Shown here piece after piece: positions 297 to 64,000 of a stretch of DNA of 64,000 nt (position 1 is its first letter; the number at the start of each line of letters is the position of its first letter). The DNA comes from Pontederia crassipes (Eukaryota; Streptophyta; Magnoliopsida; Commelinales; Pontederiaceae). Where the stretch lies: assembly GCA_030549335.1 (NCBI GenBank), contig CM060188.1:10354001-10418000 (forward strand). Reading direction: 5' to 3'. The translations under genes were made by a program, and so were the position numbers. The notes under the pieces were generated by a model. The model did no database searches. It was given only the letters and a program-made list of their open reading frames with translations, and was not told where the DNA came from.

Positions 297-3200
297 TGAC
301 TGCTGTTGCAAATGGTTTACAAGCTTGGAAAATCTTAGAAGATCTGACTAATCATATTGACCTTGTCTTGACTGAGGTAGTCATGCCTTGTTTATCTGGT
401 ATTGGTCTTCTGGACAAAATCATGAACCATAAAAGTTGCAAGAATATCCCTGTGATTAGTGAGTATCTATCATTTATTACACTAACCTAGAACTTTTCAT
501 TTGATTTCTTCAAGTCATTTTTTTTATTGAAAAAAGTCATTTCCGTTTGATACTTGTAACTGCTACACCTGGTGAGCTTGTTTGCAGTGATGTCCTCCAA
601 TGATTCGATGGGTACAGTATTTAAATGTTTATCAAAAGGCGCTGTTGACTTTTTGGTGAAACCTATTCGTAAGAATGAGCTTAAAAACCTTTGGCAACAT
701 GTCTGGAGGCGATGCCACAGTGTAAGTTTTTAAAACAACTGCTAACACAAGTTGCCGCACTAAACAAATTCATACCTCATGATGTTATCCTACAAATGAA
801 AATTTGTTCAGTATCTTGAATAGTTGATAAAGTCTAGTCTTAGCAATTCTTTTATGCTCTTGTGAGCTTGTAATCGAGTTCGTTTGGATATGCTCAATTG
901 AGGACCTGGTCTAAAGGTGTCCAAGTTCCTTTCTTGTAGTTCTTAATCACAAATTTATACGGGTACAGTGGCAATGCTTATGACTTGTATGCTTGATAGG
1001 TTGAGATTTGGATAATGCAGAAAATTTGGTAATTTAAATGTGAGAAGTCATAGATACACCAAAATGAATCATGGGTTCTCATATACAAAAGTTCTTCCGA
1101 TTATGCCCTTTATAATCAAATCAAAATGTGGGATGATATTGTAGTATACATCTTTTGACCCTTCTTTCTAATTAAGTTTGTGATTTGATCCTTTTCCCCT
1201 AATATCAATTACTTATCACAAACTCAGTCTAGTGGTAGTGGAAGCGAGAGTGGCATCCAAACCCAAAAGTCCGTTAGGTCTAAAAGTGCTGATGACTCTG
1301 ACAATAATAGTGGCAGCAATGATGATGATGATGATAATGATGATAATGATAATGAAAGCAGTAGACTGAATGCAAGAGATGGCAGTGACAACGGCAGTGG
1401 AACTCAGGTATACTTTTTAGTAGAAGAAATCACTTGTATAATCCAATGGTTTCTGAGTTTTTAATGTGTTCTTTATCATATCTGATATGATAGATTAACT
1501 TGTGTATCTGTAATTCTTCATTCAAGGGAACATAATAAAGTTGTTTTTGCATGAATTTTGAAGTTGAGGTACCTTTAAGTTCAATCTGAGAAAAGGGCTT
1601 GACTATGGTGCTAAGTTTGTGGTGCTAACATCTACATACTTTATCGTGCTTTCCTTTTTATTTTGGTTATGAACAATGTACCAGTCTATCATATTGACTT
1701 TACACATCAATCACTTGGGGACTATTTGAGGTTGATTTATCTTGATATTTTGCTGTATTACTTCAGCAGTTACGTGATTTGTCCACAGTTTGTCCCAATT
1801 TCATCACTGGTTCATGAGATTGTGAAATTATGATTTGCATCTAGATATTTTTGCATTGTCTTGATATTTTATTACAATAGGCCCCACGTCCCATCCAATC
1901 CCCCCGTGGGTTTAGTTATCCTCCGTATAGTATCCCTCATGGTTCCTCTGGATTCATGTGTTAAAGAGGAAAGTTACTGGAAATTAGAAATGCCTAGTCA
2001 TTGACATTAAATCTTTCTAAATTTGAAAATTAGCACAATGAAAGTTGCCATTTTTTATTTGGCTGATTGCAACAAGAATCAAAGAAGTTGTTTCAGAACG
2101 CTTCTGAGAGTCATTGCTCAATTATATCTGAAGTTGTATGAATTCACTCAAGTTTTGTTAATTCCTGTCATTGTTTCATGTGTTTCAAGGATGCTTCACT
2201 TATCTGTCCATTTAATTATTTATAGAATGTGTGCCAAGAGAAGGCTTCTTGAAACATAGGTCCTTAAGTAATCTCCTTTGTGATAAGCAGAGCTCCTGGA
2301 CAAAACGTGCAGTGGAGATTGAGAGCCCTCAACGTGATCAGTTAGTTGATCCTCCTGATAGTACTTGTGCACAGGTTATTCACCCAAAGCCTGAAAACTT
2401 TTGGACTGACTGGGTTTCTACATCGGCTAATGGAGAATGCCAAGGACAAAAGGAACTTGATGGTATGCTCTATTTATGTAGATAAACACTTTGAAGAGTG
2501 ATCCAATTCTCAATTCTCAATAATCTCGTTAATTTGCAATCAATATTATAGATGATCTCATGGGCAAGGACTTGGAGATAGGTGTGCCAAAAAATGCAGA
2601 GAAGATATTTGATTCTTATCAAGCTGAAAAAGCATCCAAGCTAACAGACACGAAGACAGATGAATTACTTGAAACTAATGGAAAAGATGAGAGTGTTAAT
2701 GAGAGCAAGAATTTGTCGGATGAACCAAGCACTCAAGCTGCAGATCTGATGGGTGCAATTGGTGCTACTACTGATATACGGTCAGTTTCTAGAATTACTC
2801 AAGCTCCTAATGGCTTCTCGAAGATCCAAGAAGAACAAGAAAAGATTGGTAATGCTTCGTTGGAATTACCATCACTTGAATTAAGCTTGAAGAGGCTGAG
2901 ATCTACGGCTGATGGAGGAACTGTCGCTCATGAGGATCGCAATGTTCTGAGACGATCCGACCAGTCCGCGTTCACAAGGTGCAAAAATACAAATATTAAA
3001 GCAAGAACATATTTATTTTTTATAGTCCTAGAAATGCTAACTACTGCATCCTTGTGCAAGGTATCACACATCCGTTGCTTCTAATCAAGCTCCGGCAGCT
3101 AATGGAGGAAGTTCACCATTTGAAAGCAGTTCAGAAGCAATGAGAACAGAGTCTACATACAATATGATAGACAATCCAAATGCTGCCCCCCTGAAGCAAG

Positions 3201-4514
3201 GTTCCAATAGCAGCAGCAATGCCAATGACATGGGCTCCACTACAAAGAATGTTTTCACTAATCAATCAACCTACAAGGAAAAGGCATCCACACCGACAAT
3301 CAAGTGTACACAGAATGTGTCAGCTTTCCAGCCAGTACAAAACCGAGCCCCCACAGCTCAGCAACTTGTACAGGAGAAAACAGAAGATGAGAAAACAGCT
3401 ACAGCAAGAGGACAATCAAGAGGCCAGCATCAAGTCCAAGTTCAACATCACCATCACCACTATCATCACCACCACCTCCATGTTCATAACATGCAGCAGC
3501 AACAGCAACAACAACCGCCACCGCCACCACAACTGGACCGTGATGGTTTGTCTGTCAAAAATATGGCTACAGATGTTATAGAATGTGGATCATCTGATGT
3601 ATTTGGTAGACAAGTTGAAGGTAATGCCACCAATTACAGTGTGCATGGGAGCAATTCAAGCAGCAATCACGGTAGCAATGGGCATAATGGAAGTACCACA
3701 GCAGTTAAAGTTGGGGAACCAAATATAGAGAGTGTTAACGGAATTGCAGACCAGTATGGACCTGTAGGCGGAAATGGGAGTGGCAGTGGCAGTGGCAGTG
3801 GCGTAGATCAGCATCGATATACTCAAAGAGAGGCTGCCTTGAAAAAATTCCGGCAGAAGAGAAAAGAAAGGAACTTTGGAAAGAAGGTAGCTAGCAATCT
3901 TTTATTGCATCTCTTTGTTAATATTTAGTTTAATTTGTCCAACCTTTATTTGCAGAGAAGTGTATAAGCTGTCATGATTTTCTCTTGATAGATCAATGAC
4001 AGAAACCCAAAAAAAAGGGGATCATAACAAGGACTCTTCAAATACGGCAACTATCTGCTCTATTTGAATTGGAAGCTGTCCAACCTAAAGGAAAAGGCAA
4101 AAAGATAAAAAAACCCTATGAAAAACTTGAGAAATTTGCAACGGTAACAAATTGCAATGTATCATTAATAGTTTCCATTCGTTCTGAGAAAACGTCAGAC
4201 TGGTAATATTGACTATATTTGATAGTAGTTTCTCCCTTTATTATGATATTATATTTTATTAGCTTGCGATTTCTCCTGTCATTATCTTGTGTTCTCTTGG
4301 AACCTTTTCAAGGGAGGTGTGGATAGATGTGATATTGTATTTGGTTTAATCGCAGGTTCGTTACCAGAGCAGGAAGAGACTTGCAGAGCAGCGCCCCCGA
4401 ATGCGTGGGCAATTTGTGCGGCAGACTGCACGGGAAGAAATAGGTGCCAGGAAGCAGAGAGATGACAACAATGACGATTGCAATGGACACACATGTGCCA
4501 CTGAAGATAGATAA
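297..4514 (+). CDS. PRR73-like: Pseudo-response regulator, PRR7/PRR37/PRR73 clade (5' partial)
   Basis: Circadian-clock transcriptional repressor acting in the nucleus. Exons read by eye: 297-458, 588-721, 1228-1407, 2291-2462, 2552-2978, 3061-3886, 4356-4514; together they give 685 codons in one frame, and the first exon starts inside a Val codon, so upstream exons lie outside the window. Exons 1-2 hold the second half of the pseudo-receiver domain ([48 protein letters not shown]). Glu replaces the phospho-acceptor Asp, as is normal for PRRs. Next come a Ser/Asp-rich linker, SSWTKRAVE, an LxLxL EAR-type motif (LELSLKRLR) of the kind that recruits TOPLESS in PRR5/7/9, a His-rich then Gln/Pro tract near 3445-3530, and a CCT domain ([20 protein letters not shown] continuing [20 protein letters not shown]) split by the last intron. 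CCT domains bind DNA and are nuclear. Clade placement is by motif memory; the choice among PRR3, 7, 37 and 73 is not certain. Confidence 0.93.
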
Positions 4515-54700: not shown

Positions 54701-55857
54701 ACATATAATAGGTTTTTCATTCGAAAGCTTTCAAATAAAATTATTCGGGTTGACCCTGTGACTTCTATAGTCCTTTTTCAGTGGATGTATCTACAGAGCA
54801 TTTAAGATCTAAAAAAATTCACAAGTTTGTGCAGTTGGATGTTCAATCTGCAGCAGATAACTTCCAGCAATGTGCCCAAACCAGGTCTAAAAGATCTAAA
54901 TGAATTTTATGACACATACTTGAGCAAACAGGTGCAGATAAATCAGTCATCTTTAAGATGCAAATATAAGAATCTCATCATTTCAGACATTGCATCAGAA
55001 GTGAAAACTAAGAGCAATCACAAAGCCATTGTAGACATTTACCTCAAAGAATCATCAGGCAACTCCACTTCACTCTTAATTGGGCAGGTTTCGCCCTTAA
55101 AATGGGACTGTGCAGTCCCTTCCGAACTCCAGCTGCCATCATCCACTGAGGCAAACTGATGAGATAAGGTAGCAGACGAAGCATCCGAAAGGCAATCAGA
55201 GCCTGCTGATACTGCCGCCGCCTCTGGCAAGCCGCATTGTCCTGAACCCTCCGCCGGCGGGCAGGATTGCATTCCTTCTGCTCCCTCGCGTCCCATGAAG
55301 CACCGGGAAGATGAGGAACTCGTTGAGCTTGTAGGGAAGTCCACTGCGCTGCGATCGTCCAAAAGATCAAGCGATCTCAGCTTCTTGACTGCATACTGCA
55401 GCCTCCTCTCAGCTCTGCTCCTGAACTTGATCTCTTCCGCCAGCTTCTTTTCCAGCTCCTCCAACTGTTGGAAAACAATAAAAAAGAGGAGCAGCAGCAA
55501 AAGAAATGAATAGTTACTGCTTGTGTACGATGACGATCCTGGATGCAATCCAAGAGGAAATGAGCATACTCTTTTAGCCAGATGCCAAGCCTCTTCCTTG
55601 GCGACCTTGGAGGTCGCCCTCTCGGCCTGCAGCCTCCCTATCAAGCAGTCGATCGTCCTCAGTCTATCATCCTCTTCGGTCCTCATAATGTCTCTGCTAA
55701 AAACAGCAACGAGAATCAAATTTTTATCGTAATCACACACTGCACGTATACATATATGGAATTTTCAGGAGATTGGAGGGTCATGCTACCTGCATTGGAC
55801 CTTTGCAGCAAGCATCCTGTAATGTGATTGAGGAGATCCTCTTACCAATGATGGCAT
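51769..55857 (-). CDS. Plant coiled-coil protein of unknown function
   Basis: Not recognised as a named gene. Exons: 55857-55790, 55693-55570, 55464-55043, 52051-51769, giving 298 residues in one open frame. The start MPSLVRGSPQSHYRMLAAKV is followed by a heptad-rich region (RLRTIDCLIGRLQAERATSK; EELEKKLAEEIKFRSRAERR; LQYAVKKLRSLDLLDD) that predicts a coiled coil from about 25 to 105. A Ser-rich, Cys-containing disordered stretch comes next, then a last exon with acidic EIDIQEPDSEENMLALVPF and a second helical segment (ESVQDVLLALRTVKQQLLYS). The third intron is about 3 kb and holds no recognisable gene. No membrane segment or signal peptide. Joining the last exon is supported by matching splice phase (AG|G) and by a helix of similar style. 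A separate gene is less likely, as that exon has no good start of its own. Confidence 0.75.
52052..55042 (-). other. Long intron (about 3 kb) of the coiled-coil gene
   Basis: Bounded by gtaaat at 55042 and the acceptor cacacag at about 52058-52052 on the minus strand. The interior is AT-rich. Small frames (for example 54827-55159 plus) overlap exon 3 in antisense and show no domain. Confidence 0.55.
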
Positions 55858-58456: not shown

Positions 58457-59371
58457 TTATGCCAGGAATTTTTCTAGTTGATCTGAATCATATGCATTTT
58501 CATCAACACCAATATCAGCTTTTAATTCAGATTCAAATGCACCTTTGTTAACAGCATAGTCAGCTTTCAACTCAGAATCTAATTTATCTTCATCAACACC
58601 ATAGTCAGCTCTCAACTCAGAATCAAATGTATCTTCATCAACACCATTGTCAACTCTAAACTCAAAATTAAATGTATCTTCATCAAAATCAACGCCAACT
58701 CTCAACATAGAATCCATGTCCTCATCCATCAGCACATTGATTAAAGCAAGCAACTCCCGCTTCATATCATTCGCCGCTGCCCTGTTCATTTTCTCCAAGT
58801 TAGAGAACCAAAGCTGATCATTTTCCTGGTCTAATCCAGAATCGCACCACGCACAAATCTCCCTCGTGATCGCCATTACGAACATTCCAGAGTCTTCAAA
58901 ATGTGTCTGCTGGGGTGTCCTGCACTCCAGAAGCTCTGGGTATCCAAGAAACGGCTTTAGTACATCGCAGAGCTTTCTTGAATGAGGCTCGTTTGTCTCC
59001 TCACAGCTGTCATAATGCAAAAATTGGTTCTGCTTCTGAACATAGACAAGCAAACTCCAGTGCCTGCATGTCTGGTTGTCCGATGCATCATCCCAATCAT
59101 GTACCACAAAAATTGAGACTTCCTTCTCTCTCAGGCCATACTTGCCTACTATCTCATACAGCTTCTCAAAGTCCTCAAAGTTGACAATGGAGGATGAGAC
59201 TGAAGTCGGAACGAGAAGCACATGGCCAGCACGAGTGTGCTGTGATGCTTCTGAGAGAAGGCTGAAGTAGAAATCGATGATGCGGCTGTTGATGCAGCAA
59301 GGCTCACTGAGGACATCAAGATCGGAACAGTTCAAGGAAAACCCTTTGTTGAAAAGGAGTTGTTCATCAAC
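58457..59371 (-). CDS. NEDP1/DEN1-like C48 (Ulp1) protease homologue with Ser at the nucleophile site (5' exon not found)
   Basis: Homologue of the deneddylase NEDP1/DEN1/SENP8, which in active relatives processes or removes RUB/NEDD8. This exon encodes 304 residues from the acceptor at 59372. The frame upstream is closed by the TAG that forms the acceptor, and no in-frame ATG precedes the domain, so a short 5' exon is missing. Family signatures (numbered from the exon start): SDLDVLSEP, INSRIIDFYFSLLSE, RHWSLLVY with His104, FLHYDS with Asp121, PQQ (Gln154/155), then FEDSGMFVM where Ser161 (codon TCT, 58891-58889) stands in place of the catalytic Cys of the usual DCG motif. The C-terminus adds five degenerate 15-residue acidic repeats (VDEDTFDSELRADYG, VDEDKLDSELKADYA and others), absent in Arabidopsis DEN1 (about 226 residues). 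Likely a pseudoprotease, unless this base is an error. Confidence 0.82.
   Translation of the reverse strand, partial: VDEQLLFNKGFSLNCSDLDVLSEPCCINSRIIDFYFSLLSEASQHTRAGHVLLVPTSVSSSIVNFEDFEKLYEIVGKYGLREKEVSIFVVHDWDDASDNQTCRHWSLLVYVQKQNQFLHYDSCEETNEPHSRKLCDVLKPFLGYPELLECRTPQQTHFEDSGMFVMAITREICAWCDSGLDQENDQLWFSNLEKMNRAAANDMKRELLALINVLMDEDMDSMLRVGVDFDEDTFNFEFRVDNGVDEDTFDSELRADYGVDEDKLDSELKADYAVNKGAFESELKADIGVDENAYDSDQLEKFLA
58460..58690 (-). repeat. 45-bp tandem repeat encoding an acidic 15-residue motif, about 5 units
   Basis: Coding repeat at the end of the NEDP1-like gene. On the plus strand it appears as recurring atcttcatcaacaccat/agtcag-ctctcaactcagaat units. Translated units: FDEDTFNFEFRVDNG, VDEDTFDSELRADYG, VDEDKLDSELKADYA, VNKGAFESELKADIG, VDENAYDSDQLEKFL. 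Divergence between units shows the array is not brand new, while the preserved frame suggests selection for coding. Confidence 0.85.
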
Positions 59372-59619
59372 CTAGTTGTTATTGGACTGTGTAAGCAACC
59401 TGTCACAATACCTAGAGAAGAATAAGAGTGAATACATAAAAATCTCACAACTTTTGTTTTAGACCAATTGAATGAATAAACTTTCAGGTATTATGCATTC
59501 ATATGGGGACCTGGAAGACATTACTAGCATTCGGCATTATTATTAGACAAGAGCTAACTTAAATCCCAAAAACTTAACAAAAAAATTAAAGGTGTTTTCA
59601 TAAAAAAAAAAAGAAAAAC

Positions 59620-59712
59620 ACAACAACAACAACAAAGCCTTATCCCACTAGGTGGGGTCGGCTACATGAATCATACGACGCCATTCCGCTCTATTAGTAA
59701 CCAAACATTCGT
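59620..59712 (-). mobile_element. RTE-type LINE 3' tail, copy C (minus strand)
   Basis: On the minus strand this is ggttactaatagagcggaat, then catgtagccgaccccaccta, then gggataaggctt and (TTG)n. It is the same 3' end as the copies at 23130 and 39178, here cut to about 90 bases. It lies upstream of the NEDP1-like exon, possibly in its first intron. Confidence 0.75.
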
Positions 59713-62123
59713 TGATCCATGTTCATAAGATTCGACAGGATTTTATGCTGACTGTCGGGAACTAACACAAGTCTTAGTAGATGGCTTAGTAGATGGCTAC
59801 TCAAATGATGTAGTCATACTTTTCCTTTTGAAAGAAAGCAGCCCTAGTATGGCATGTGTCAACATGTTAATGAAGTTTCCACAATCTAACTGGAAAGTGA
59901 AATTATGTTTTATACAGAACATATAATTTATACATTCAGTAGAACAGCTTGGCATAACATGATTCGTGACTTTTGCACTACTACACCAACGAAGTACTAA
60001 TGTTTGAATCCAAGATTCGGAAAACAGCTTATGAAACCATATTGTAGTGCAGAAATGTACACTAGAAATAGGCAGCACACAAAAAATGCAGGTCAATTGA
60101 TCTCTTTTTTTTTTCTCCTATAGAAATTTTCTTGAATGTAAGATTACTTATAGTGAACAGGTCTGGGCCTTTGAGGACAGAGTAGACTCATTAAGATAAT
60201 ACCTAGAATAATAATTCTCATAGGCCCGCTTGGTTAAGATGCAGACAAGACTTTATTTCTTTCTTAGTTATTCTGTCAAACACTCAAGGTCATCACTAAA
60301 AACTGTTGACTTAATCAAAATATTAGTAATCTTCATCTCATAAAAACCAACTTCTCAACTTTCAATAAAATTAAATAACCTCTTCAAACTAGACGCTAGA
60401 CAAGAATACCCTCCTAGAATAATAAATTTTATTGAATAATTTTCTAAAATGATTAAAACTTAAAAATAATAATCAATCAAACCAAACAGGCCCAACTTAA
60501 TACGCCCCTCTGATTTTGTCAAGATGATCCAACACCTATCCTGTTCTTTATTTTGTTAACCTTAATCGCCCTCTTACCAGTTACATCAATTAACAGAAAC
60601 AAATGAAATAATAACCAAAAATCACTCCCCCACACCGTCTGGGTTGTCATGGAGGCATCTCCCTCCCCCTTTCCACCCCACTTCCTCCAAAAGAACAAAC
60701 ACGAAAAAAGAAAGAACAAGAACTGATCATAATGACGAACACCGTGTTCAAACATCTGGTCTGGGAGGGGAGCAGAATGAAACCGGAACGCCATGCATGC
60801 CATGCAATGAGGAGGGGGAAGAACGATCGCAGAGGAATCGATCATGCACACGCGAAGATGGAGGGCTGGGGAACGAACCTTTGAAGCCCGGACTGGCCGG
60901 CAGTCGCCATTGTTCCTGGGTCTTCGGAGCCTCGTCGGGGGTTTTGGCGGTTGGGATGATCTCGCGTTCGTCTTGCGACTGGCGGTTTTAAACTGACAGG
61001 TTTCCCTGGACTCCGCGGTTTTAAAGTTGCACGCGAATTTCTTGGGAACTTTCTTCCCCACTAACGACCATTGGTATTTCGTTAAGCCGCAAGTCATCGC
61101 GTTAATTAAGTGGCGCATCTACAGGTAATTTAATATAAACAAATATATTAGTAAGCTTTTATTTATTTTTTTAAATAATAAAAATGACTAAATGAGGTTA
61201 AAATATATAATAAAAAGAATAGAGAAAGTCAAAATAAGGCGATATTTTAATAATGTCAACAGGTGAAATGAAAGTACGCATCTGATTTCGTTCCCCATTC
61301 CGATTTATTTCCTTCTAATTTCCGAATTGGAAATAGCAGATTGTTAGGAGTAAGGGTTTAAAGCACCTGGTGGGCTTTCCAGGAATTACGTTCTGAATTT
61401 AATTGCTGAACTGTCTTGCTTTGGTGTTCTAATATCACTCCGAGCAGCCGAAATATTAAGTATTTCATCTTTATCTCCTGTTGTCAAAGAAAATAATTGT
61501 TAACAAATATTGCATATGAAAAGGATGATTGGAAGAGTATGATCAAAGCTTGGAACAAGCAGATAATACGTTAACAAAAAAATGTGTGTAAAGATATCGC
61601 ATTCCACAGTCAAATCCATCTTTACTTTGGATGCATACTTTGTACATTTCATAGTTCAGGACACTTACTCAAGTTAGTAGTCATCTTTTCCTCCTCAAAA
61701 AGATATTTGTACGGTTCTCACGATATAAGTAGAATATGCATTAAGTGCTAGTACAAAGATCTTAGCTCAGAGCAGAATCTACCAATTAGATTGATTCATT
61801 CTGTTTTGAATCTTTTGATCCATCTCGACGCAATGTAGGCTTTTTGGCCGATCTAAATGTCAGCATAATTGTTTGGTATTCCAGTAAATAATAGAAAGAC
61901 GTCAAGCATAAATCTAAAAAGGTTAGATATGCATTAGTGCTAGAGTATATTGACCACAGTATGAATTTGATCTGATGCAAAAAGAAAATTATTTTTTATG
62001 ACTACCTAGTACATATATGTGATTATTGTCTCATACTACTGTCGCAACTAAAATATTGTGCAGCTTATCTCCCAGTCTGCAGATGAGGAGAACGACTCCT
62101 CTTCCCTTAAATCGCTTCTTCTC
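59713..62123. other. Interval between the NEDP1-like gene and the PPR gene, with a GC-rich island
   Basis: Contains imperfect hAT-like inverted ends at about 60223-60494 (GGCCCGCTTGGTT at the left; GGCCTGTTTGGTT from the right), without a confirmed target duplication. A GC-rich island at 60.64-61.02 kb has open frames on both strands but no domain. On the minus strand it holds a short ATG frame (MATAGQSGLQRF, from about 60915), which makes it the best candidate for the promoter and 5' exon of the NEDP1-like gene, although splice phase does not join cleanly. From 61.12 to 62.12 kb it is AT-rich; the part next to 62124 is probably PPR 3' UTR. Confidence 0.4.
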
Positions 62124-64000
62124 TTATTCTGTGCTCTCCTCGTGCAGTTCCTCAACAAAACAGTAACCCTCTTCCCTCATCAATCCAAGCAATTGCTCCA
62201 AAACAAGGTAAATTTCTTCGCACCGTCGATGAAGGGTATCGCGAGCAACAAACACCTCCAATCCATCGCACGTCTCGATCCAACTGCAACCAGGAAACTT
62301 CGTCAACCCAATGCCCTTCATCTTGTCCCTAACCGTTTCGGCGTCCTCCCACTTCTTGGCCTTCGAGAATAAGTTAGCCATGACAATGTAATTCCCAGTG
62401 TTCTGGGGTTCAATCTCAAATAACTGCTCAAAAGCAAGTTTCCCAATTTCAACATCTCCGTACATTGCTGCTCCGCTGAGCAAAGAACCCCATGCTTTTG
62501 CATTTGGTTCAAAGGGCATCTTTTCAATCAGGTCAGCTGCTTCTTGGAGCATACCACTGCGACTGAGCACGCCAACCATGCAAGCATAATGCTCTGCTCC
62601 TCTTGCAATGCCATACTCTGAAAACATAGTATCAAAAATCTGGTGAGCCTTTTCCACTGCTCCAGCATGAGCGCAAGCTGTGAGTAGCGCAGTGAAGGTG
62701 ACGGCATCTGGCTTAGTGCCACATTCGAGCATACGATAAAACAAAGAGAATGTAGCATCAGCATCACCATGAGATGCATAAGCAGATATGATTGATGTCC
62801 AAACAATCACATTCCGCACCCTAGTCAGCTCAAAGAGCTGCCCAGCTCCTTCAAGAAACCCAGCTTTGGCATAAACGTCAATAAGACCAGTTGCAACGTA
62901 AATGTTCTGATCAAAGTCTTTTCTGATAGCATAGGCATGTACCTCCTTCCCTCCCCAAATGTTTGAAAAGAAGGCAAGGGCAGGCAGCAGACTGGACAGA
63001 GTAACTGCATTCGGCTGATAGCCAGATGCCTGCATCTCATAAATTAAGTTTGGTATATCACCATGGTGATTGTTCTGCATGAGACCAGCCACCACAGCGT
63101 TCCATGTACTAAGAGTTGGATTTTCGAGTTGCCGAAAGAGGTCCATTGCCTGGTTCACAAATCCATAACTCATATACCCAGTAATCATTGCACTGTAACT
63201 CACTGCATCCTTGTCACTCATCTGTTCAAACAAACCTCTCGCATACTCCAAGCTCCCACACTTTGCGTAGAAGCCAATGATCGAGTTCCAAACAACAGCA
63301 TCCGTCTCGATACCAATCTCCACAATAAACCGATGAACTTCCATACCAAACGCGAGGTCTTTGAGGTGAGAACAAGCCTGGAAAACGCTCACTGCAGTGA
63401 CTGCATTTGGCACCATCCCATCCGTTCCTTTGGCCATCTCCCGATACAACTGCAAGCATTCCTCGTAGTGGCCGCATTGTGAGTATCCTGAGATCATCGA
63501 ATTCCAAGAAACAGTGTCCTTTTTTGGCATTCCATCGAACAACTTTCTCGCCGAAGTTACTTCATTAGCGTGGGCGTAGACCGCTATGAGCCCATTGCAG
63601 ATAAAGAGGTCCGAATCAAACCCAAGCCGAAGAACGAAGGCGTGCAAGTATTCCTGGATGGAGCGAGGAAGGGAGAACGGAGGGACGGAAAGGAGGGACT
63701 TCAAGACGGACGAGAGAGTGAAAGCATCGGGTCGGAGGTGCGGAGGGAGGGAGGGAAACATGCGGAGGGCGTCGGTGGGGCGGTCGTGAAGGGCGTAGGC
63801 GATGAGCATGGAGTTCCAGGCGAAGAGGTTCTTGTGAGGTATATTGTCGAACACGCGGCGGGCGTCGTCGATGCGGCCCCACCGGGAGTAGAACGAGATG
63901 AGCTTGGAGGCGAGGAAGTTCGAGGGCTGGGCGCCGGCGAGGCAGAGGACTAGGCGGGCGTGGAGCTGGCGACCCTCCCGGAGGAGGCCGCGGTCGGCGC
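62124..64000 (-). CDS. PLS-class pentatricopeptide repeat protein, E subgroup (5' partial), At2g37310-like
   Basis: Organellar RNA-binding protein of the type that specifies RNA editing or processing sites in mitochondria or plastids. A single uninterrupted frame runs from the stop at 62124 to the window edge, 624 residues. The true start lies beyond 64000, so the targeting peptide is not visible. It begins LLREGRQLHARLVLC, then a series of P, L and S repeats with typical cores (RVFDNIPHKNLFAWNSMLIA; KLFDGMPKKDTVSWNSMISG; GLFEQMSDKDAVSYSAMITG; HIPxxG-like steps). It ends with an E domain (EPNAKAWGSLLSGAAMYGDV; EPQNTGNYIVMANLFSKAKK; GCSWIET) and no DYW deaminase domain. The motif run VSYSAMITGYMSYG / STWNAVVAGLMQNNHH resembles Arabidopsis At2g37310 from memory. 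Intronless and GC-rich at its 5' end, normal for PPR genes. Confidence 0.92.
   Translation of the reverse strand, partial: ADRGLLREGRQLHARLVLCLAGAQPSNFLASKLISFYSRWGRIDDARRVFDNIPHKNLFAWNSMLIAYALHDRPTDALRMFPSLPPHLRPDAFTLSSVLKSLLSVPPFSLPRSIQEYLHAFVLRLGFDSDLFICNGLIAVYAHANEVTSARKLFDGMPKKDTVSWNSMISGYSQCGHYEECLQLYREMAKGTDGMVPNAVTAVSVFQACSHLKDLAFGMEVHRFIVEIGIETDAVVWNSIIGFYAKCGSLEYARGLFEQMSDKDAVSYSAMITGYMSYGFVNQAMDLFRQLENPTLSTWNAVVAGLMQNNHHGDIPNLIYEMQASGYQPNAVTLSSLLPALAFFSNIWGGKEVHAYAIRKDFDQNIYVATGLIDVYAKAGFLEGAGQLFELTRVRNVIVWTSIISAYASHGDADATFSLFYRMLECGTKPDAVTFTALLTACAHAGAVEKAHQIFDTMFSEYGIARGAEHYACMVGVLSRSGMLQEAADLIEKMPFEPNAKAWGSLLSGAAMYGDVEIGKLAFEQLFEIEPQNTGNYIVMANLFSKAKKWEDAETVRDKMKGIGLTKFPGCSWIETCDGLEVFVARDTLHRRCEEIYLVLEQLLGLMREEGYCFVEELHEESTE

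Follow-up and report, generated by a model that had tools for sequence, protein, structure and literature searches.

Four DEN1-like genes with serine in place of the catalytic cysteine in Pontederia crassipes, a probable family of retained pseudoproteases

The window analyzed here is a 64-kb stretch of the Pontederia crassipes genome (C6:10354001-10418000; assembly of 1.13 Gb), and all coordinates are positions in this window unless a chromosome label is given. Its minus strand carries an open frame related to the deneddylase DEN1 (NEDP1/SENP8), in which serine replaces the catalytic cysteine and the D-C-G motif reads D-S-G (hereafter DSG). The frame and its principal features are as follows.

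58457..59371, minus strand: open reading frame encoding the DSG DEN1-like protein (304 codons and a stop), with no start codon of its own
59060..59062, minus strand: codon of His104, equivalent of catalytic His102 (coordinate computed from the frame)
59009..59011, minus strand: codon of Asp121, equivalent of catalytic Asp119 (coordinate computed from the frame)
58907..58909, minus strand: codon of Gln155, equivalent of Gln157 (coordinate computed from the frame)
58889..58891, minus strand: Ser codon TCT, residue 161, replacing the catalytic Cys (human Cys163) in the alignment
58485..58714, minus strand: 45-bp tandem repeat (minisatellite in the coding frame), 5.1 copies, encoding an acidic C-terminal tail

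Translated from stop to stop, the frame at 58460-59371 gave 304 residues with no internal stop, matched human SENP8 in a phmmer search (E value 5.8e-18, residues 13-174), and scored 25.3 bits with the Pfam family C48 (Peptidase_C48), for which the cut-off is 20.7 bits. The D-C-G of human SENP8 was D-S-G in this frame, with TCT at 58891-58889 aligned to human Cys163, as an earlier note on this DNA had claimed; the same note was right that the catalytic His, Asp and oxyanion Gln are kept (His102, Asp119, and Gln157 in human numbering, together with Asp162 and Gly164). In a fold test on models, the predicted clan CE fold of the family was closest to NEDP1. The "intact 304-codon frame" of the note held as a run of codons without a stop, but not as a translatable gene, since a TAG precedes it and a start codon is missing.

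A protein search of the genome yielded four DSG copies, namely, the window copy on C6 and copies on C5 (96% identity), C14 (72%), and C13 (70%). D-S-G was present in all four close copies found, each using TCT, and a distant DEN1 gene with 35% identity to the window frame, which uses TGC, was found on C12.

C12:39747731-39748420: canonical DEN1 of the same genome, one uninterrupted frame

By sequence, this C12 gene (230 codons from ATG) is the canonical DEN1, because it keeps H-D-C-G and its match to human SENP8 (E value 2.4e-28) is better than that of the window frame. A paralogue with intact D-C-G was thus found when sought in the same genome. It was found once in the protein search, in repeat-rich surroundings; a C11 homeologue was seen neither in the protein search nor among the gene-level DNA-search matches, for which the best candidates were scored and the flanks are repeat-rich, and its absence is unproven. 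Four weak further matches in the protein search (E values 0.03 to 8.2) were located on C12, C10, C2, and C8. Other C48 matches on C8, C7, C6, and C5 had stops inside the matched frame and would represent introns or degraded copies.

The acidic repeat tail varied among the copies, with an extra unit in C5 relative to C6 and a much shorter tail in C13 and C14. The 4 base differences over 90 aligned tail codons between C5 and C6 are too few to judge selection. No known motif exceeded the Pfam cut-off in the tail of the window copy (DUF5406, 10.5 bits versus 25), and none was listed for the C5 tail. The last residues of the C14 copy were altered by an insertion of 2 bases close to its end, placed by alignment; the ending DSD-x-x-E-x-FL was shared by C13 and C5/C6.

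Residue conservation was compared with each protein taken up to residue 235 and human SENP8 restricted to residues 2-178. Sixty-three positions were identical in human SENP8 and the C12 DEN1, and 32 of them were kept in all four Ser copies, including His102, Trp103, Asp119, Gln157, Asp162, and Gly164; another 29 differed in all four (2 as gaps) and 2 were mixed. Among the positions changed throughout were Asp29 (to Ser), Asn91, Asn93, Gly99 (to Thr), Ser101 (to Arg), Asn159 (to His), Ser160 (to Leu or Phe), Cys163 (to Ser), and Tyr166 (to Phe), while Gly100 became Trp in the other Ser copies and Cys in the window copy. The Ser family has Glu at 161, which may be in contact with Arg101. The "good similarity across the whole fold" described in the note therefore stands for the fold itself, and is qualified by the 29 of 63 canonical positions that differ, several of them near the active site.

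The changes reach the groove for the C-terminal tail of the modifier. Residues that hold this tail in relatives are described in excerpts of PMC11130253 and PMC4961225, and by spacing the NopD residues would correspond to human positions 26 and 29. Position 26 is Trp in human SENP8 and Phe in the C12 DEN1, and the aromatic residue is absent from all four Ser copies, which have Cys. In the window this codon is at 59294-59296 (residue 26), where Cys replaces the aromatic di-Gly clamp. The excerpted text of PMC4961225 reports that the extended loop before the catalytic His (VR-3) guides the NEDD8 tail via backbone bonds; in the DSG copies this loop is as long as in the C12 DEN1, but Gly99-Gly100-Ser101 are replaced. 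The loss of the nucleophile appears to have been accompanied by a remodeling of the tail groove.

Selection was analyzed with a GY94-type codon model on 227 alignment columns, from which those gapped in any Ser copy were removed, leaving 213. The ratio of nonsynonymous to synonymous substitution rates (omega) of the Ser clade was 0.234, and omega fixed at 1 gave a significantly worse fit (twice the log-likelihood difference 65.6, P = 5e-16). Neutrality was rejected on terminal branches alone (P = 6.6e-6) and for the C5/C6 tips (P = 2.7e-4), with no difference between internal and terminal branches (P = 0.48). In all models but the first, the C12 branch reached its upper bound, and its omega near 0.084 is unreliable. 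The DSG family is under purifying selection. Decay of the whole family was rejected by the same model, and "not simple decay", as the note had put it, proved apt for the family, with Ser in four of four copies, a Cys-bearing DEN1 elsewhere, and selection on the family.

The surroundings of the gene were compared by means of three neighbors in the window.

55042..55500, minus strand: neighboring exon, synteny anchor; in all four places its distance downstream from the DSG gene is about 3.0-3.6 kb
3140..3925, plus strand: exon with a CCT domain, which we take to be PRR-like, second synteny anchor
62127..63854, minus strand: presumably PPR-like gene, anchor for C5-C6 homeology

The neighbors of the four DSG copies were in the same order. 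The exon at 55042-55500 was on the strand of the DSG gene on C6, C5, C13, and C14. The PRR-like gene, presumably PRR37/PRR73, was in each case oriented oppositely to the DSG gene and further downstream of it, at about 55 kb (C6), 58 kb (C5), 194 kb (C13), and 205 kb (C14). The best match of the PPR-like gene (98%) was beside the C5 copy, and the next best reached 38%. Because of these shared neighbors, C5 and C6 look like homeologues, as do C13 and C14, and the two pairs look like descendants of an older segmental or whole-genome duplication. Synonymous divergence (dS) of the DSG genes by NG86 was 0.12 for C5-C6 as well as for C13-C14, against 0.89-1.12 between the pairs, and that of the neighboring exon was 0.079 for C5-C6, 0.058 for C13-C14, and 0.54-0.57 between pairs. 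The age of the older duplication is only rough, because YN00 gave 0.59-0.93 for the DSG genes between pairs; for comparisons with C12, dS was obtained in one of four by NG86 and in none of four by YN00. Ser in all copies and the shared order of neighbors suggest that the Cys-to-Ser change most simply predates the older duplication.

Taken together, the loss of the catalytic residue, the predicted retention of the fold, and the selection on the frame make it probable that the DSG family is a retained pseudoprotease and not a product of decay. A duplicate of the deneddylase DEN1 would have lost its nucleophile by the Cys-to-Ser change, with the groove residues for the C-terminal tail of a ubiquitin-like modifier rewritten; the gene would then have been doubled with a chromosomal segment and later again by tetraploidy, and the four copies would have been kept by purifying selection for a noncatalytic job. 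This job would most likely be that of a binding module for NEDD8/RUB, a different ubiquitin-like protein or a partner in neddylation, with the globular surface of the CE fold making the contact in place of a grip on the tail. From the sequences, such a repurposed module seems likelier than a simple NEDD8 decoy, because position 26, Asp29, and the pre-His loop are rewritten in all four copies.

Several observations weigh against this interpretation. The window copy lacks a start codon, and fixation of Ser was assessed among paralogues of one genome. The C5 copy passes the Pfam C48 cut-off at 23.4 bits, but C13 (16.1 bits) and C14 (15.6 bits) fall under it. The AlphaFold2 model of C13 was poor, with a mean predicted local distance difference test score (pLDDT) of 48.0, and was left unused, and in the modeled window protein pLDDT was 52 in the PQQ block (151-160) and below 50 at 94-102. 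The backbone contacts of the loop to the tail could survive the side-chain changes. His, Asp, and Gln are kept in all four copies, although a pure binder has no need of them; this objection is tempered by simple counting, by which the chance of three given positions being kept is about 0.125 (32 of 63 kept).

For the window copy itself, and not for the family, a young pseudogene is an evenly balanced alternative, which concerns the region upstream of the frame.

59372..59374, minus strand: TAG directly upstream of the frame; AAG in the C5 homeologue
59435..59437, minus strand: upstream in-frame ATG, which opens the frame in the C5 homeologue and is here cut off by the TAG
59619..59790, minus strand: insert that we take to be SINE-like (short interspersed nuclear element), present in C6 and missing from this site in C5, with approximate edges

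The window frame opens with GTT right after the TAG (59374-59372), and the first Met of its protein is residue 163, past the Ser. The C5 copy is open back to the ATG 66 bases upstream, and the same ATG is present in C6, but the TAG intervenes, so that no usable ATG is left ahead of the frame. In addition to this lesion and the insert upstream, the window copy alone among the four has Cys for Trp at the second residue ahead of the catalytic His. Against a pseudogene, the window branch had an omega of 0.18 that did not differ from the rest (P = 0.73), with neutrality rejected at just P = 0.045, and the AG of the TAG could in principle serve as a splice acceptor. An AG stands immediately before the domain in all four copies; use of the C6 TAG as an acceptor is conceivable, in a poor context with a pyrimidine fraction of 0.44. 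Loss of the start in the window copy is probably recent, and a full-length protein may no longer be made from it; "not simple decay" was not supported for it as a gene, for want of a start codon. The data fit a family in use, in which the lesion of the window copy, if disabling, is recent.

C13 and C14 begin at their own ATG (MLTLAQS...), with some resemblance to the start of the C12 DEN1 (MATLSG...), and C5 and C6 have TTG at that codon. By sequence, the ATG was either lost there before the C5/C6 split or gained in the C13/C14 pair. An element related to the SINE-like insert was located in C5 about 700 bp further upstream than the C6 insert site.

A classic NEDD8/RUB decoy, in which a dead DEN1 would grip the NEDD8 tail and shield or buffer NEDD8, is unlikely for the family. 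It is possible because a suitably altered dead DEN1 binds free Nedd8 tightly, as excerpts of PMC11443517 report for human DEN1 with C163A, H102R, and S160D (Kd 6.3 nM), and Arg101 and Glu161 of the family adjoin two positions changed in this engineered binder. The DEN1 fold, the length of the pre-His loop, and Trp103 are kept, and the loop contacts the tail via its backbone (PMC4961225, excerpted text). Replacement of position 26, Asp29, Gly99-Gly100-Ser101, and Asn159-Ser160 in all four copies, however, alters the tail channel. The retained NEDD8 binding or decoy role advanced in the note is thereby weakened, the tail-holding residues known from relatives in the excerpts of PMC11130253 and PMC4961225 being replaced as well.

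Far less probable is a clan CE protease whose nucleophile was switched from Cys to Ser and which would still act on a ubiquitin-like protein, the reshaped groove giving it a new substrate. His102, Asp119, Gln157, Asp162, and Gly164 are kept in all four copies with Ser at 163, under strong purifying selection, but the channel residues are changed, and human NEDP1 with C163S is inactive toward the tested substrates. By analogy, cleavage by the DSG proteins is unlikely because in cells this mutant fails to deneddylate PCNA or DNA-PKcs, according to the excerpts of PMC5876183 and PMC7250858. That the Ser codon is a sequencing or assembly artifact has a negligible probability and was rejected, as the four separate loci, with 70-96% protein identity to the window frame, agree in TCT.

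Neddylation regulates cullin ligases used in plant hormone signaling. If the DSG family is a retained pseudoprotease, a pseudo-deneddylase retained by selection alongside a DEN1 that has its Cys would suggest that neddylation is under an additional layer of control. The set of four copies with one fresh lesion offers a natural comparison for testing the function of the protein.

In comparison to DEN1/NEDP1/SENP8 (C48, clan CE), represented in plants by At5g60190 (PMC6117577, excerpted text), the DSG family has Ser at Cys163, replacements at position 26, Asp29, Gly99-Gly100-Ser101, and Asn159-Ser160, and an acidic repeat tail in C5/C6. The C12 DEN1 resembles it in the domain, which is likewise contained in one uninterrupted frame, in sequence (34-39% identity), and in the length of the pre-His loop, but keeps LND, GGSH, and NSHDCG and is located elsewhere in the genome. 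Pseudodeubiquitinases, as covered in excerpts of PMC10919355, likewise lost a catalytic residue and kept the fold, and these dead relatives are known regulators that act by allosteric activation or as scaffolds; those named there belong to ubiquitin-protease families, with no pseudo-SENP8 among them. A retained pseudo-DEN1 or pseudo-deneddylase was found neither among the listed results of searches of open-licence literature nor in these excerpts, which is weak evidence of absence. The free-Nedd8 binder eDEN1 (PMC11443517, excerpted text) is also a catalytically dead DEN1 that carries charged residues next to the catalytic His and ahead of the nucleophile position, but it is engineered and has Ala at 163, whereas the DSG family has Arg101, Glu161, and a changed tail channel. 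The Kaonashi C48 genes of Mutator-like elements, described in excerpts of PMC6117577, are similarly copies of the C48 domain in plant genomes; in contrast, the four DSG genes show synteny, have DEN1 as their closest relative, and evolve under constraint.
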